Shown here: positions 1-5,064 of the stretch, in pieces
Numbering within the stretch: position 1 is the stretch's first letter
How the letters are laid out: each line of letters opens with the position of its first letter
NCBI GenBank assembly: GCA_947464585.1
Contig: CANHYS010000227.1
Location: 1 to 5,064, forward strand
DNA: 5,064 bases
Reading direction: 5' to 3'
DNA from: Planctomycetaceae bacterium
GTDB taxonomy: Bacteria; Planctomycetota; Planctomycetia; Pirellulales; UBA1268
Program-made: the position numbers and the translations under genes
Notes under the pieces: model-generated
The model's input: only the letters and a program-made list of their open reading frames with translations
Told to the model about the DNA's origin: nothing
Databases searched by the model: none

Positions 1-881
1 AACGCCCGGTTACGGATCGCCTCTCCTGACCGACGGATCAGTCCCTGGCCTGCCCCAACGAGAAGCCCGAAGAGTGTCCAGCCGACGACTCGCGTCAGCA
101 GGCCGGATGTCATCATCGAGATGAGCGACAGCTGCGGCTTCCCCCCGAATTCGAACTCGTGCACCAGCCTGAAGCGTTCGTCGTTGGAAATCCTTCCCTC
201 GATCGTCTTGTGATGCCCCGGGGCGCCAACCTCGACGCGAAAGTCGGTCGGATCGCCCGGAGTGCACCGTTGGAAGTAATCGACTTCCACGCGGTATTTG
301 CCCTTAGGGGCAAAGTCGGGCGGCCAAACGATGTGCTCGACAGGTTCGTTCGTGACGTTGCCGCCGCACGATGCGTTGCGATCGACATCAAGTTCACCCT
401 GTGTCGAGGAAATACGATCCCCGAAAAAAATTCGCTCACCGCGAGGGTCGACGACGTGGAGGTCGAGATCGTTTCTGTTTTGCCAGAAAAGGCCGATCTC
501 TATTTCGCCGGCCTTGGCGCCAGCGTCACGCAACCGCTCCTGCAGTTCGGCACTGAAAACGCTCCCACCGCTCTCCGTCCCAGCGGCCAGCGAGCTCGCG
601 TAACTCGCCTGCGCGAGGCCAGCCCCCAGGCCGCCGCCAAGAATGCCGAGGCCGCCGCCAATCAACATTCCGCGTACGGCGATAGCCTTCGAACCGGAAG
701 CGAGCCCCTCCGACATACCAAACAGCGTGCCAATTCCCAGGCCGGTCAGGCAGCCAAACCCGGCCGTGGCTATGAATGATTTGGGCACACCGATAATCAT
801 CTCGGCAATGAGCCACCCAATCGCGCCGCCGACGATGCCGGCAAGCACGGCACGCGCCCGTGAATCGTTTAGCAGTCGCAT
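1..881 (-). CDS. Membrane protein with YfaP/DUF2135-like extracytoplasmic domain (C-terminus beyond window)
   Basis: I read this frame from the ATG at 881; it is open for 293 codons to the left edge, so the stop lies outside. The ATG is the only sensible start: the frame is closed by a TAG upstream with no other start codon between, and GGAG sits 8 bases before it. Seen: three glycine-rich hydrophobic segments (about residues 10-32, 38-56, 70-92), then a soluble beta-rich domain (about 126-243) with DLDLHVVDPRG at 138-148, GELDVDRN at 162-169 and GKYRVEVDY at 194-202, then a fourth hydrophobic segment (about 256-282) followed by RRSGEAIRNR. The middle motifs match the DUF2135 family of E. coli YfaP, whose function is unknown. 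Basic residues at 1-10, 64-70 and 283-292 put the soluble domain outside the cytoplasm, where Cys172 and Cys206 could form a disulfide. The fourth segment (WTLFGLLVGAG from Trp268) resembles the start of the membrane module in the two upstream genes, so an FHA-like domain may follow. Gene and domain are well supported; role is unknown. Confidence 0.88.
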   Translation of the reverse strand, partial: MRLLNDSRARAVLAGIVGGAIGWLIAEMIIGVPKSFIATAGFGCLTGLGIGTLFGMSEGLASGSKAIAVRGMLIGGGLGILGGGLGAGLAQASYASSLAAGTESGGSVFSAELQERLRDAGAKAGEIEIGLFWQNRNDLDLHVVDPRGERIFFGDRISSTQGELDVDRNASCGGNVTNEPVEHIVWPPDFAPKGKYRVEVDYFQRCTPGDPTDFRVEVGAPGHHKTIEGRISNDERFRLVHEFEFGGKPQLSLISMMTSGLLTRVVGWTLFGLLVGAGQGLIRRSGEAIRNRA

Positions 882-889
882 GCTCGTTA

Positions 890-893
890 CTCC
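890..893 (-). promoter_or_regulatory. Ribosome binding site (GGAG) of the DUF2135-like gene
   Basis: On the minus strand the sequence reads CGGAGTAACGAGC and then ATG. GGAG lies 8 bases before the ATG at 881, a normal spacing. It supports the start of a gene whose far end is outside the window, and it is better than the site in front of the kinase gene. Confidence 0.7.
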
Positions 894-916
894 GTAGAAG
901 GTGGTGCTGCGGCTAC

Positions 917-939
917 ACCACGACCGCTATCGTGGTCGT
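917..939 (-). promoter_or_regulatory. Intergenic hairpin with two alternative pairings
   Basis: Within the 81 bases between the kinase stop (963) and the next start (881), ACCACGA at 917-923 pairs with TCGTGGT at 930-936 (7 bp, 6-base loop). An overlapping pairing is ACGACC at 920-925 with GGTCGT at 934-939 (6 bp, 8-base loop); the two cannot form together. No run of U follows, so this is not a standard intrinsic terminator. It may mark a processing site, a partial attenuator or a stabilising element between cotranscribed genes. The pairing is seen; the function is inference. Confidence 0.4.
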
Positions 940-962
940 CGAAGCTGGTGTCGCCCGCGTGT

Positions 963-3884
963 TCATGGTGCCCTCGGCGGAGGAGGGGCGGGCGGTACCG
1001 GTCTTGATAGGGGCGTTGCAACAGAGGCTTTTGGTAGTGCCATAACCGTCTGTGGTTGGCGGCTTGGTTGTGATGTCGCGACCAACGGGCTCGGCCGTGA
1101 ACCCGTCGGGATCGTTTGCCTCGAGTTCTCAGCGACGACAAGGGCAAGGGATCCAAGAGCCCGCCGGTCTCCCACCGAGATCCTCGCCGGCTGGTTGGTG
1201 GCGTAGTCCAGAAGGTAGATCTGCTGATTATCAACCCAGTATTTGTACGTCAACGGTCTGAGGGCATCACGCACGAGGATGTCGCATGACGATGCGTCGG
1301 ATCCAGCGGTCACAGCTCGAGATCCGAGGCTGATCTGCGCCGGCTGGAAGCCCCCTCCACGATCGATCTCGAGGAAGTATCGGCGGGTGGCCGCCTCTGC
1401 AATCGCTGTGACCATTCCGAAAACTATCCCAAGACAGCCGGCACCAACAAAGCGACCAGCTGTCTCGTTGACCGACGCATGAATCGTCATATCGGCAAGA
1501 GAGGCAACGGCGCCCGCGGTAATTCCCCCGACGACCGCTGGCACGATTCGAAAGTTTGGAATGATTCTCGTCGCAGTGAACCCCATCGCGGCACCGAGCA
1601 GGCACCAATGAGACAAGTTGCGGCACATCCACAGACCTAGAGAATGCCATGTATTGTCTGACCTGATGAACTCAGCAGGAAAAAATCGCTCGAGACCTAC
1701 GGTCGTCAAAGCTGCAATGACGACAAATGCGGTACCGATAAGGAGTTGTCGCCACGAGGCGAGCCCAGGTCGCCGTATGGAGAGGTTCTGACCCACGATG
1801 AGTGCCAGCACTGCGCCGATCGCGACAGAGAGCGTTCGGAGTTGTTCTGCGTGAAGCCACATGTCAAGCAGTCGGCCAAGGCTGGGCTTCAAAGCGATCA
1901 CCCCCTCCCCAAGCATCGCTCCGCTGAACGCACCAGCCGTCGCCGCCAGCGACAGTGCAACAGCCTTCATGATGACACCAGGCGTAATAGCGCCTGCTGG
2001 AATTCGCTGCGCGAGCCAACGCGCAGGAGGCAGCCAACGGAGAATCACGGCGACAGTGCTATTGACGGCTTCGGTAGCAAAAAGTGTCCAGGCTGTTTGC
2101 AGTGGGGTTGATGCCACGTTCACAGCAGGCTGAATGGGGTTTGTGAACGAGGAGCTAGACTGGACTGGCTGCCCCACGAGTTGAACCGCGGGCCGAGGGA
2201 TGGGCTGCGGAAGTGGCGTCGTTACAGCCTGCGGGGTTGGCTGAGAAGCGAGTTGGGCCGTTGCCGGCGGAGCAGGCCGAGACAGCGGGCGCACGGGTTG
2301 GGACTGGCTCTGGGGTCGCGGCGCGGGAAGTGTGACCGGAGCCTTTGGGGACTGTGCTGGGGGCGACTGCACTGGCCGGTAGGTCGCCAGCAGCCCTTCG
2401 ATGGTACGGCGTTGCGGGTCACACTCCGGGTGCCCGCCCAGGTCGGTGAGCTTCGTCCAGGCGGCATGCAGAGCGGCGAGATCCCGGCTGGGCGCGCGGA
2501 TGGCGGCGAGCACCTGATCACACAAAATATTTTTCGCGCGCCACGAGACGACATCCGCTTGATACACGGCCGCGCTCTTGCGGAGGCTTCCGTTAGGCCG
2601 GGTGAGCACCGGCTGTGATGCATCCCATTCACGCACCAGATCCCGCCAGCGGCGGCCCGCTCTTGCCGACTCAAGCCGTTGGATCGCGGCGATAACTCCC
2701 GGGGCGTCTTTCGCCGCAGCAACAGCTGCCGTGGCGCCTGGATAATTGTGCAACAGTGGTGAGCCGACGAGAGACGCCATGCTCTTCTCGTTTCCACTGT
2801 CGATGGCGGTGACGAGTTCCGCGAGCTTTGCGATCCGCTGCTGAGCATCCCGTATTCCCGGCTGCAGGTCGGGCGGCGCATCGGCGACTTTTTTGCCGTT
2901 ACGTGTGAGGAGTCCGATCGCGGCATCAAAGTCGCGTCTATTTAAGCACGACCGGACGACGTTGAAATCAAACGCCGCCAACAACTCTTCAAGGAAGGGC
3001 ACCTGGTCCATCCGCACGCGGGACAGTTCGCAGAGCGTCGCCGACAACCGCTGCACCTCGCTGTCAGGCGACCTTCGTAGTCGGCCGAATAGCGGTGATT
3101 TCACTGGGTCGGCCAAATCCTCTTTGCGAAACAGCATCTTGTCGTAGAGCGGTTGTGTGACGAACTCGCTCCAGAGTCTGGGCTCCGCGGAGAGAGCCTT
3201 CAGGCCGACATAAATGAACATGGAGGAAAAGTTGTCAAGACCGAGGGACAGCAAAGTGTTTCCGTCGCGGCTTGGATGCTGGTATGGCTCGACACCGATC
3301 TCGAGGTTGCGGCGGCCGACAAGTTGCGGCACGCACATGCCGTCGTAATCGACCAGCTTTATGTCGTTGGATGCAGTAATCATCACGTTGGCATGCTGCA
3401 GGTCGCCATGCGCGATGTTGGCACGGCTCAACGCCAGTGCGGTCCCCCGCCACTTCTCGCAAACGGACCCGATCGTACGGCCATCATTCGACTCGGCTCT
3501 CTTCGCCAGCCAGTCAAACAGAGTGTCCCCCTCGATCCAATCCATCGTGATCAGCGGATACCACTTGCCGTTCGGGGCGCGTATTCCTTTTTCCGAATAC
3601 ACAAACGGGACCAGGCACCCAAGCGACTGCCGCGATAGGTGGTTGTGGATTGCCAGGTAGCGTTCTTGCCTTTCGGGCTGGGCTGAGGCAAAGACGCGGA
3701 TGGCCCGGCTCTTCTTATTCGGGAGGAGGGCGCGATATACGTCTGCAAATGTACCTGCCCGTGCACGCGGCAGATTCATCGCGTCCCGTTCGATCGTTAC
3801 GCCCTTGAGTTCGGCGTCGCGAAACGCGACCTGCGGATTCTGCAAAATGTCATTGAAGGCCTTCCGTGGTGGGAAATTATCCAT
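963..3884 (-). CDS. Membrane-anchored Hanks-type protein kinase-like protein with C-terminal FHA-like domain
   Basis: A 973-residue multidomain protein, presumably phosphorylating Ser/Thr at the membrane. Residues 1-300 form a kinase-like domain: a glycine-loop remnant ARAGTFADVY (41-50), hinge region MDWIEGDTL (114-122), catalytic loop HGDLQHANV (159-167; Asp161, Asn166) and DYDG (179-182) in place of DFG. The N-terminus (NPQVAFRDAELK, 16-27) and HGDLQHAN/DYDGM match a bacterial kinase family that includes the YegI-type kinases. The VAIK lysine position appears to be Arg63 (AIRVF), so catalysis or ATP binding may be atypical. Residues 308-500 are helical and unassigned, with ALHAAWTKLTDLGGHPECD at 471-489. 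Residues 503-590 are a Pro/Gln-rich linker. About six membrane segments follow (near 636-660, 684-700, 712-730, 756-772, 782-797, 811-830), then an FHA-like domain (834-917) and a proline-rich tail ending PPAPPPPRAP. An even number of helices places kinase and FHA-like domain together in the cytoplasm. The ATG at 3884 is the only start after an in-frame TGA; its ribosome site is weak. The stop is TGA at 963-965. Confidence 0.93.
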   Translation of the reverse strand: MDNFPPRKAFNDILQNPQVAFRDAELKGVTIERDAMNLPRARAGTFADVYRALLPNKKSRAIRVFASAQPERQERYLAIHNHLSRQSLGCLVPFVYSEKGIRAPNGKWYPLITMDWIEGDTLFDWLAKRAESNDGRTIGSVCEKWRGTALALSRANIAHGDLQHANVMITASNDIKLVDYDGMCVPQLVGRRNLEIGVEPYQHPSRDGNTLLSLGLDNFSSMFIYVGLKALSAEPRLWSEFVTQPLYDKMLFRKEDLADPVKSPLFGRLRRSPDSEVQRLSATLCELSRVRMDQVPFLEELLAAFDFNVVRSCLNRRDFDAAIGLLTRNGKKVADAPPDLQPGIRDAQQRIAKLAELVTAIDSGNEKSMASLVGSPLLHNYPGATAAVAAAKDAPGVIAAIQRLESARAGRRWRDLVREWDASQPVLTRPNGSLRKSAAVYQADVVSWRAKNILCDQVLAAIRAPSRDLAALHAAWTKLTDLGGHPECDPQRRTIEGLLATYRPVQSPPAQSPKAPVTLPAPRPQSQSQPVRPLSRPAPPATAQLASQPTPQAVTTPLPQPIPRPAVQLVGQPVQSSSSFTNPIQPAVNVASTPLQTAWTLFATEAVNSTVAVILRWLPPARWLAQRIPAGAITPGVIMKAVALSLAATAGAFSGAMLGEGVIALKPSLGRLLDMWLHAEQLRTLSVAIGAVLALIVGQNLSIRRPGLASWRQLLIGTAFVVIAALTTVGLERFFPAEFIRSDNTWHSLGLWMCRNLSHWCLLGAAMGFTATRIIPNFRIVPAVVGGITAGAVASLADMTIHASVNETAGRFVGAGCLGIVFGMVTAIAEAATRRYFLEIDRGGGFQPAQISLGSRAVTAGSDASSCDILVRDALRPLTYKYWVDNQQIYLLDYATNQPARISVGDRRALGSLALVVAENSRQTIPTGSRPSPLVATSQPSRQPQTVMALPKASVATPLSRPVPPAPPPPRAP
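1134..1619 (-). repeat. Copy 2 of shared membrane hairpin plus FHA-like module (kinase residues 756-917)
   Basis: This segment encodes WCLLGAAMG, two further glycine-rich hydrophobic stretches ending in EAATRRYFLEI, then ISLGSRAVTAGSD, RPLTYKYWVDNQQIYLLDYAT and GDRRALGSLALVV. It aligns from end to end with 4561-5031 in the upstream gene. Over the last 62 residues the two align without gaps and I count 27 identities. It is a diverged protein-level duplication, not a recent DNA repeat. Confidence 0.8.
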
Positions 3885-3975
3885 GCAACACCCGCACCGC
3901 AGCGTCGAAACTCACCGGTCGCACTCTGACGCAGAACTGATCGGCCTTCCCGCAATACAAACAGGCTACGACCAT
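3877..3975 (-). CDS. Possible 32-residue CxxC leader peptide overlapping the kinase start
   Basis: A 33-codon frame begins at the ATG at 3975, just after an in-frame TAG, and ends with TAA at 3877-3879. Its last codons read through the kinase ATG (3884) in another frame, giving ATGGATAA, a layout typical of translational coupling. The peptide starts MVVACLYCGKADQFC, with Cys5, Cys8 and Cys15, and ends AAVRVLHG. The CLYCGK stretch resembles half of a zinc ribbon, but one knuckle and a lone cysteine are too little to name a family. Ribosome signals are weak for both this frame (GCGGGGCG before the ATG) and the kinase (GGGTG), so coupling could matter. It lies about 40 bases below the predicted transcription start. 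A chance ORF is quite possible at this length. Confidence 0.3.
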   Translation of the reverse strand: MVVACLYCGKADQFCVRVRPVSFDAAVRVLHG

Positions 3976-4024
3976 CGCCCCGCAGGCCTATGCGACCTCA
4001 CCGGTATGCCAGAGCCGAGGCCGT

Positions 4025-4053
4025 AATATCTCCCCCCTGTTGGAAGGAGTCAA
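4025..4053 (-). promoter_or_regulatory. Candidate sigma70-type promoter for the kinase gene
   Basis: On the minus strand TTGACT (4048-4053, five of six bases of TTGACA) is followed after 17 bases by GATATT (4025-4030, four of six bases of TATAAT). Transcription would start near 4018, about 40 bases before the possible small ORF and about 134 before the kinase ATG. It is the best match I see in the gap. -10 motifs vary between phyla, so this remains a motif-level prediction. Confidence 0.42.
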
Positions 4054-4056
4054 CAG
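4037..4056. promoter_or_regulatory. Inverted repeat over the -35 element, possible operator
   Basis: CTGTTG (4037-4042) and CAACAG (4051-4056) are exact 6-bp inverted arms separated by 8 bases. The right arm overlaps the -35 hexamer at 4048-4053 and the left arm lies in the spacer, which is where a repressor dimer would block RNA polymerase. A 6-bp pair can arise by chance, and no regulator gene is visible. Confidence 0.28.
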
Positions 4057-4190
4057 CCCTCTCGCAAAGCCGGCGTTGCGTCGAATGTCTGGCGAAACGG
4101 CACCGCTGGCAATGTTGTCAACCCGGTGTCGGGTGGCTTGATATGTGCCAGAGATCGTGGCTTGGCTGGTGACGCAAGAGCAGAACTCCG

Positions 4191-4215
4191 GTATCGGGCC
4201 GCGATGAATCGATAC
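4191..4215 (-). terminator. Stem-loop just downstream of the right-hand gene, weak terminator candidate
   Basis: GTATCG (4191-4196) and CGATAC (4210-4215) form a 6-bp stem with a 13-base loop, starting 9 bases after the TGA at 4225-4227. There is no U tract after the stem, so Rho-independent termination is doubtful. It may be a processing or stability structure. Confidence 0.2.
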
Positions 4216-4224
4216 TCACGCACG

Positions 4225-5064
4225 TCACGCGTTCTTCGGCGGTGGCGGAGGCGGCGGTGGGGCGCGTTTTACGGGCTGGCCCGTATGCGGTGCAGGTGGA
4301 GTGGCCTTCTGCACAGGGCCGACTGCGGGCGGTGCTGTCGTCTGTGGCCGCGATGGTGGCGGCGGTGGCGGGATTGGTGCCGCTGGCCGGGCAATGGGCG
4401 CCGATGTCGACGCGGGCGGTGCCAGCGTCGGCACCTGGCTGGGCGATCTGGATGGGCGCCCAGTGATTGGCGATGAGGGGGGCGAAGACGGAGAGGGAGG
4501 AGGAGGCGGTGGTGCGACGGTTCGGGCGATTGGTGCTCCGGCCGGCGCCGATCCCTGTTTGACCGTGAGAGTGATGCTGCCCACGGTGCGCTCATCGTTC
4601 GCGGCGACCGTTGTAGCCTGTTCCGTGGCATAGTCGAGGAGAAACACCTGATGGTTGGCGACCCAGTACTTGTACAAGATTGGCCGTGTTGACGACGGAG
4701 CGAACACGGTGCAGGCTCTGCCATCAGCACCCACGGTGACCGGGGCCGAACCAAGACTCACCTTGACGATCTCCCGCAGTCCGTAGCGCACCTCAAGGTA
4801 GAAGTCACGGGTGGCTGCCTCGATCAACGCGAGCATCGCCCCGATGCAAAAACCGAGCAACCCCGCGCCGCAGAGTCGCCCGATCAGATCGCCCAGGAGC
4901 GTCGATGCCGCCATGAAGCCCACCGCCGCGGCAACGCCGCCGACGATTCCGCCCACGGTGGCGGCGAGGGCACCGAGATTCGGCACGAACGCGGCCAAGC
5001 CTCGCCCGAGCAATCCCCCCAAAAGTGACCACCCCAAGAGCATGCCGCAAACAGCCAAGATACC
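4225..5064 (-). CDS. C-terminal part of a membrane protein with FHA-like domain and polyproline tail (N-terminus beyond window)
   Basis: The frame is open to the right edge and ends with TGA at 4225-4227, leaving 279 residues visible; the TTG at 5056-5058 has open frame before it and need not be the start. Seen, numbering from the edge: three glycine-rich hydrophobic segments (about 4-26, 33-53, 60-82) ending EAATRDFYLEV (82-92), a beta-rich domain (88-168) with VSLGSAPVTVGAD, ILYKYWVANHQVFLLDYAT and VGSITLTV, and a 110-residue Pro/Ala/Ser-rich tail with proline runs of 6, 6 and 8 at 185-190, 232-237 and 269-276, ending KNA. The beta domain has the spacing of an FHA domain but lacks the usual Gly-Arg and Ser-x-x-His phosphothreonine-contact motifs. 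Hydrophobic segments and domain are homologous to residues 756-917 of the kinase encoded next. The missing N-terminal part may carry a separate sensor or effector domain, for example a VWA domain as in similar proteins I remember; that is a guess. Confidence 0.88.
   Translation of the reverse strand, partial: GILAVCGMLLGWSLLGGLLGRGLAAFVPNLGALAATVGGIVGGVAAAVGFMAASTLLGDLIGRLCGAGLLGFCIGAMLALIEAATRDFYLEVRYGLREIVKVSLGSAPVTVGADGRACTVFAPSSTRPILYKYWVANHQVFLLDYATEQATTVAANDERTVGSITLTVKQGSAPAGAPIARTVAPPPPPPSPSSPPSSPITGRPSRSPSQVPTLAPPASTSAPIARPAAPIPPPPPPSRPQTTAPPAVGPVQKATPPAPHTGQPVKRAPPPPPPPPKNA
4561..5031 (-). repeat. Copy 1 of shared membrane hairpin plus FHA-like module
   Basis: Encodes visible residues 12-168 of the right-hand protein: WSLLGGLLG, a PNLGALAATVGGIVGG stretch, LIGRLCGAGLLG, EAATRDFYLEV and then the FHA-like domain. 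The matching stretch in the kinase keeps the order Trp-x-Leu-Leu-Gly, Pro-Asn, Gly-Gly-Ile, Gly-Arg, Gly-Ala-Gly, Glu-Ala-Ala-Thr-Arg, Ser-Leu-Gly-Ser, Tyr-Lys-Tyr-Trp-Val and Leu-Leu-Asp-Tyr-Ala-Thr. Confidence 0.8.

Follow-up and report, generated by a model that had tools for sequence, protein, structure and literature searches.

The window considered here is the whole 5,064-nucleotide stretch of planctomycete DNA (contig CANHYS010000227.1). It contains three open reading frames (ORFs), all on the minus strand and reading in the same direction, which we refer to as genes A, B and C. The first-pass annotation of this DNA, made from the sequence alone, had proposed that the three genes share one membrane/FHA-like module joined to different working ends and that their products assemble through it, perhaps as a membrane phospho-signalling complex. 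We find that genes A and B carry homologous copies of a unit composed of three glycine-rich membrane helices, a predicted FHA-fold head and a proline-rich tail, and that gene C very probably carries it as well. The kinase encoded by gene B resembles that of the TerY-P triad, which consists of a TerY-like vWA protein, a PP2C phosphatase and a Ser/Thr kinase (PMC11090510, PMC7699616). Our tentative reading, to which we give slightly less than an even chance, is that the window comes from an operon of a planctomycete lineage that encodes a membrane-bound switch based on protein phosphorylation and related to this triad.

Table 1. Features of the window, with positions on the 5,064-nucleotide stretch (aa, amino acids)
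Feature	Position	Strand	Content or basis
Gene A	4225..5064	-	279 aa seen; N-terminus past window edge; three membrane helices, FHA-fold head, proline-rich tail
Gene B	963..3884	-	973 aa; STK_OB-type kinase, linker with proline-rich part, membrane helices, module copy 2, proline-rich tail
Gene C	3..881	-	293 aa seen; C-terminus past window edge; N-terminal three-helix membrane bundle, DUF2135-like domain, start of second bundle
Module copy 1 (gene A)	4549..5064	-	Predicted helices aa 2-24, 32-57 and 59-85; predicted FHA fold aa 88-170
Module copy 2 (C-terminus of gene B, after kinase)	1125..1646	-	
Kinase part of gene B, aa 4-305	2970..3875	-	PADLOC STK_OB match; residue table
DUF2135-like domain of gene C, about aa 126-250	132..506	-	Sub-threshold Pfam match; planctomycete module proteins

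Copies 1 and 2 of the shared unit have 65 of 161 residues in common with a single gap (BLASTP, 1e-41). Their Smith-Waterman score, calculated on the segments as the first-pass annotation had drawn them, is 326, whereas 1000 residue shuffles reached at most 62 and 1000 half-wise shuffles at most 71. The proposed alignment along the full length of the two copies is thus borne out, and the earlier figure of 27 identities in a 62-residue core is close to the 30 that we count in an ungapped core of 65 residues. The EAATR motif is present in both copies, as had been stated; P0008, the closest relative of gene C, has EQALS at the matching place.

The case for a third copy is of a different kind. About 30 residues of it lie within the window and a pairwise BLASTP comparison of genes C and A gave no significant match, so the claim rests on relatives. 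P0008 is a protein of 512 aa that is 99% identical to gene C over 293 aa, and past the point where gene C leaves the window it runs on through three membrane helices and an FHA domain into a proline-rich tail containing a proline run. Gene C therefore very probably carries the shared unit past the window edge, and the suggestion that the third gene starts the module, which finds no significant pairwise match in the residues seen, gains its support from P0008 and from profiles of the helices. Comparison of the copy 1/2 family with the gene C family over the whole module gave an E-value of 6.6e-18. With hhalign, the helical parts of both families matched at 1.1e-15 with a score of 82.6 versus a shuffled maximum of 19.9, whereas the FHA parts scored 19.6 versus a shuffled maximum of 19.5 (100 column shuffles each), which is not significant. 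Sequence alone does not unite the FHA parts of A and B with that of C; the helices and the fold do.

Structure prediction, a check that the first-pass annotation had put forward for the module, yielded an AlphaFold model of copy 1 with three helices and an FHA fold, and this model matches Protein Data Bank (PDB) entries 4a0e, 4d9v and 6uid by fold. The FHA fold is also present in the relative of gene C. At the level of sequence the domain is harder to recognize: gene A has no Pfam match of any kind, gene B has no FHA match at an E-value of 1, and a profile of the A/B modules run against PDB sequences returned no FHA chain (three rows with unrelated names, best E-value 0.65). The FHA-like domain of the first-pass annotation is thus supported by the fold predicted for copy 1 and not by Pfam.

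FHA domains bind phosphothreonine through a motif of Gly-Arg, Ser-x-x-His and Asn. The motif is incomplete in these proteins. The Arg that should follow the conserved Gly is found in none of 45 members of the A/B family (copies A and B plus 43 relatives), and a basic residue occurs three places further on in 36 of the 45 (Arg in 24, Lys in 12). Because the motif Arg is absent, the FHA heads of A and B are more likely to act as scaffolds than to read phosphates, and phosphopeptide recognition by the shared part appears unlikely; the phospho-reading implied by the first-pass annotation is thereby weakened. In the gene C family the corresponding Arg is kept in 20 of 21 sequences and the His and Asn in all 21, with Ser at the motif place in none, and the FHA domain of gene C could still bind a phosphorylated partner.

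The N-terminal part of gene B matches the PADLOC STK_OB profile at 1.9e-56 over profile positions 3-297 of 562, and by this match the kinase is assigned to the TerY-P type. It falls below the Pfam kinase cut-off (24.6 versus 31.7 bits). In a set of 31 kinases of this family, the window's included, the His and Asp of HxD, the catalytic Asn and the metal-binding Asp of DFG are present in every member. At the position of the beta-3 Lys, 17 have Lys and 14 have Arg, the window's kinase being one of the 14. Past profile position 297 gene B has no STK_OB match; its C-terminus consists of a linker, for which no fold search was made, membrane helices and the FHA-fold module. This joining of kinase and module in one protein is seen in the window and in three relatives only (P0004, P0005 and P0007); a fourth, P0006, has the module and lacks the kinase part. 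In the set of 31 related kinase ORFs, some of which are clipped at contig ends, the module is present in the window's kinase and in none of the other 30. Of the 31 loci found by the kinase, 29 belong by title to genera that we take to be planctomycetes. Two further kinase relatives, at 29-30% identity, come from the only two plasmid records matched (AP025019.1 and NZ_AP026079.1, from the cyanobacteria Calothrix and Acaryochloris), and on the contig of L011 a second, shorter kinase relative (L011:2786-4507, a 574-aa ORF) is located upstream of the main one.

Relatives of the tail of gene B (P0004-P0007, at 98%, 89%, 65% and 50% identity) and the 29 proteins that match gene C indicate that both are real genes. 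P0004, the closest to B, and P0008 each lie on a contig of 8768 bases, which fits their being on one shared contig. For gene A, we found no close orthologue among the 120 listed of 355 proteins that matched a vWA-module query (A5); within those 120, the best non-self match of gene A is the kinase P0007 at 46% identity, followed by vWA proteins at 46-49%. A vWA Pfam domain is carried by 111 of the 120, as expected from the query. We infer that the unseen N-terminal end of gene A is probably a vWA domain.

The domain of gene C that the first-pass annotation named DUF2135 stays below the Pfam threshold. The match (PF09906) reaches 15.5 bits against a gathering cut-off of 22 and spans 14 residues only, and P0008 has no Pfam DUF2135 match at an E-value of 0.01; eight planctomycete module proteins nevertheless contain a counterpart that is 37-49% identical to the domain of gene C (1.9e-34 to 2.8e-24). 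The word DUF2135 was not found in the literature searched. Six helices are predicted in P0008 from hydropathy peaks and the model, and since three of them precede and three follow the DUF2135-like domain, this domain and the FHA domain are predicted to lie on opposite sides of the membrane. The module helices also resemble the N-terminal bundle of gene C (score 32.9 versus a shuffled maximum of 18.4 in 100 column shuffles), and gene C thus seems to have two such three-helix bundles, one on each side of the DUF2135-like domain; in P0008 they span aa 7-100 and 252-347. One ORF, L004:1142-2293, resembles the protein of gene C minus the inserted DUF2135-like domain. The kinase of gene B must be on the cytosolic side, and in the simplest reading the FHA heads are inside as well if gene B has an even number of helices, a number that the hydropathy scan does not fix.

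As the first-pass annotation had supposed, different ends are found on the module. Among 44 ORFs with a strong module match in related genomes, 19 have a DUF2135-like domain, 21 have a vWA domain and four, apparently fragments, have neither. The partner domain of the unit in Gemmatales genomes is either DUF2135-like or vWA, and locus L016 encodes two vWA-module proteins in tandem. A C-terminal zinc ribbon of the CPxCGRK...RYCMxCDxTF type follows the proline-rich tail in L013, L014, L016, L028, L029 and many ORFs of L034-L076; by a simple pattern it lies near the C-terminus of 33 of the 44 ORFs and in none of the window copies. Weak matches to PF09131 over the module region (P0087, 1.5e-4; L016:5076-7472, 0.032) are most likely chance matches of glycine-rich helices. 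A module query (A1) matched 16 of 23 genomes chosen for holding the kinase (13 strongly, three weakly), 57 of 102 genomes in the order of G001 (29 strongly, 28 weakly; up to 35 candidates scored per genome) and three of 246 in an even phylum-wide draw, in which at most 14 candidates were scored per genome and misses are possible. A search of the gene C type in the order of G022 matched 192 of 196 genomes (at most seven candidates scored per genome), with most listed rows covering the FHA part only (about positions 349-450).

Several loci of relatives hold genes of these kinase systems. L001 holds an STK_OB kinase with TerY and PP2C. L004 reads, in order, membrane-FHA-proline protein, DO-GTPase2 (26.2 bits, just below the cut-off of 27), kinase, GAP1-N2/GAP1-M, an unnamed protein, TerY and PP2C. 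L029 has DO-GTPase2 (35.9 bits), kinase, a GAP1 protein (GAP1-M at 24.1 bits against a cut-off of 24, GAP1-N2 below its cut-off) and a module protein with a DUF2135-like domain. L028 has a related kinase and module ORFs, with TerY immediately following the module gene; a second, divergent TerY-like protein (L028:20657-21622, 2.1e-7, C-terminal half only) comes after TerY, where L001 and L004 have PP2C.

To put numbers on this linkage, we counted neighbours within 20 kb, with a floor of 100 bits for module, TerY and STK_OB rows and with coordinates transcribed by hand; genomes whose module matches are weak (G004, G009 and G016, and those of this kind in the order of G001) do not enter the counts, and the chance expectations are rough estimates that ignore contig ends. 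Of 66 strong modules, 32 have TerY within this distance and 21 an STK_OB-type kinase (less than one expected in each case), and of the 41 that belong to genomes in which GAP1-N2 was searched for, 19 have it within 20 kb (less than one expected). The linkage depends on the type of module gene. TerY lies within 3 kb of 17 of 21 DUF2135-type genes, compared with none of 21 vWA-type genes, eight of which have it within 20 kb. These distances refer to the 42 of the 66 modules with typed loci, including, among the 21 of DUF2135 type, two fragments (L034 and L041) typed by tree place only; the kinase list behind them is a subset, and some distances above 20 kb, such as that in G277, are missing. The four DUF2135-type exceptions are G006 and three loci that are cut short (L032, L040 and L066), which fits contig ends; the genome of one of the three, G280, has no TerY match anywhere. 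In 16 genomes chosen by the module and not by the kinase, 11 of 25 modules are near TerY and two of 25 near a kinase, and the TerY linkage is therefore the firmer result.

The figure of two in 25 near a kinase belongs with a series of results that weigh against the proposed switch. Neither TerY, PP2C, the GTPase nor GAP1 is among the three genes of the window, and the STK_OB profile covers the kinase half of gene B only. The beta-3 Arg may impair catalysis. Seven of the 23 kinase-bearing genomes have no module match and three more have a weak one only. Of the 66 strong modules, 24 have no TerY, kinase, GAP1 or other module within 20 kb. Four of 29 strong-module genomes (G280, G288, G289 and G316) lack a TerY match and have none to STK_OB that exceeds 25 bits. 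A distance of at least 470 kb separates the kinase from the DUF2135-type gene in five genomes with large contigs (G005, G276, G277, G278 and G282), although TerY is within about 1 kb of the latter gene. Finally, of the 22 genomes in the order of G022 with a gene-C-type row (query A4) above 80 bits, five contain a strong match to STK_OB, on the same contig only in G011, which is also the only one with TerY on the same contig; modules of the FHA type that gene C has are not bound to the kinase system. The expectation that module hits would cluster with kinase and DUF2135 genes therefore stands in part: the link of the module to the kinase system is real in many, not all, relatives.

A tree of 54 modules offers a view of how the kinase acquired its tail. 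The four kinase modules form one clade (support 100/99) with gene A as its sister (99/94), and this group stands apart from the vWA and DUF2135 types; the DUF2135-type modules are not one clade (four changes). The bootstrap is not fully settled (0.988), the outgroup is very distant, and the tree program warns that the long outgroup branches and the branch of gene A plus the kinases may be falsely drawn together. The simplest reading of the tree is that the kinase gained its tail once, from a neighbouring gene or from a common source.

In the model that we propose, the glycine-rich three-helix bundle with its cytosolic FHA-fold head and proline-rich tail would be attached to a cytosolic kinase in B, to an outward-facing DUF2135-like domain in C and to the unseen, putative vWA end of A. 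The shared units would pack like with like in the membrane and in this way bring the outside domains and the kinase into one complex, with the FHA fold of A and B serving as a structural dock instead of a phosphopeptide reader, and the outward-facing domains would be coupled to the kinase within. Assembly through the module is plausible. We hold the stronger version of this idea with more reserve and regard it as less likely than not: that the unit is a dedicated assembly module through which any carrier joins one transmembrane complex, that outward-facing vWA and DUF2135-like sensors of planctomycetes are thereby connected to TerY-P and DO-GTPase/GAP1 conflict signalling, and that in one lineage the kinase entered the complex directly by capturing the module from the gene next to it. 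The known company of TerY-P and DO-GTPase/GAP1 genes suggests that the system may serve in phage defence or against envelope stress (PMC7159879, PMC11090510, PMC7699616).

The same unit might be a mere membrane anchor that was spread by duplication between neighbouring genes, with the proteins acting separately and forming no complex. Glycine-rich helices are a common type of anchor, the grouping of the kinase modules with the adjacent gene A is what one would expect if the kinase captured its neighbour's tail, and 13 of the 21 vWA-type modules have no TerY within 20 kb. An anchor would not, however, need to be kept whole, as the three helices and FHA fold are in 45 aligned sequences with 18 invariant columns. 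Modules also recur in neighbouring genes: 26 of the 66 strong ones have another within 20 kb, where about 0.6 is expected. We consider this explanation rather doubtful. A comparable, minor share of our confidence goes to a housekeeping envelope complex of planctomycetes, for example in the cell wall or division, in place of a defence or stress switch. The frequency of the module in the order of G001 is rather broad for a defence island, and no mobile-element gene is among the window's three genes, but TerY, PP2C, STK_OB, DO-GTPase2 and GAP1, to which the module is linked, are families of conflict systems (PMC7159879, PMC11090510).

Improbable by comparison is classical FHA signalling, in which partners would be phosphorylated by the kinase and the resulting phosphothreonines bound by the FHA heads of all three proteins. 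Such a system would make sense of a kinase in the same operon as the FHA fold of copy 1 and of gene C's relative; the Arg, His and Asn retained in the gene C family are consistent with it, and the displaced basic residue of the A/B family might stand in for the missing Arg. Opposed to it are the complete loss of that Arg from its usual place in A and B, the lack of the customary Ser of S-x-x-H in the gene C family and the replacement of the kinase's beta-3 Lys. The membrane-bound switch with a structural FHA dock is the reading that we prefer to all three. In the window we found no tRNA, and a promoter scan gave one site against 0.9 expected, which has no meaning.

Among known systems, the TerY-P triad is the nearest. 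An OB-fold version of it has been reported to work as an antiphage system by itself (PMC11090510 and PMC7699616, citing Gao et al. 2020). Gene B shares with the triad a Ser/Thr kinase that matches STK_OB, in its kinase half only, and kinase relatives at 42-50% identity lie in STK-TerY-PP2C operons (L001, L004). Gene B differs in that its match stops short of the second half of the profile, in which an OB fold is expected, and in that its C-terminus is the membrane module with the FHA fold. The GAP1-N2-type DO-GTPase theme has been described as restricted to actinobacteria (Kaur et al. 2020, PMC7159879), a paper whose main text does not contain the word DUF2135. Likeness to it is seen in L004 and L029, where DO-GTPase2-like and GAP1 genes, some with scores at or under the cut-offs, lie beside the kinase; the systems here are planctomycete, however, and add the membrane-FHA module to DUF2135-like, vWA or kinase proteins. 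Both the TerY-P and the DO-GTPase/GAP1 systems have been described mainly from gene neighbourhoods, leaving the sensed signal and the cell location open (PMC7159879, PMC11090510, PMC7699616). A unit common to outward-facing domains and the kinase would, if confirmed, place one version of these systems in the membrane as a concrete complex.

A third likeness is to the FHA-fold domains of YscD/PscD in type III secretion (PF16697), which serve ring assembly. P0008 passes the PF16697 cut-off (38.5 versus 33.2 bits), and the fold matches of copy 1 agree with this likeness; no secretion gene is among the window's three genes. The proteins described here differ in the setting of the fold, which comes after a bundle of three membrane helices and has a kinase, vWA or DUF2135-like domain as its partner. 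If our reading is correct, these proteins would provide an example of an FHA fold without its phosphate motif that is seemingly kept for assembly.

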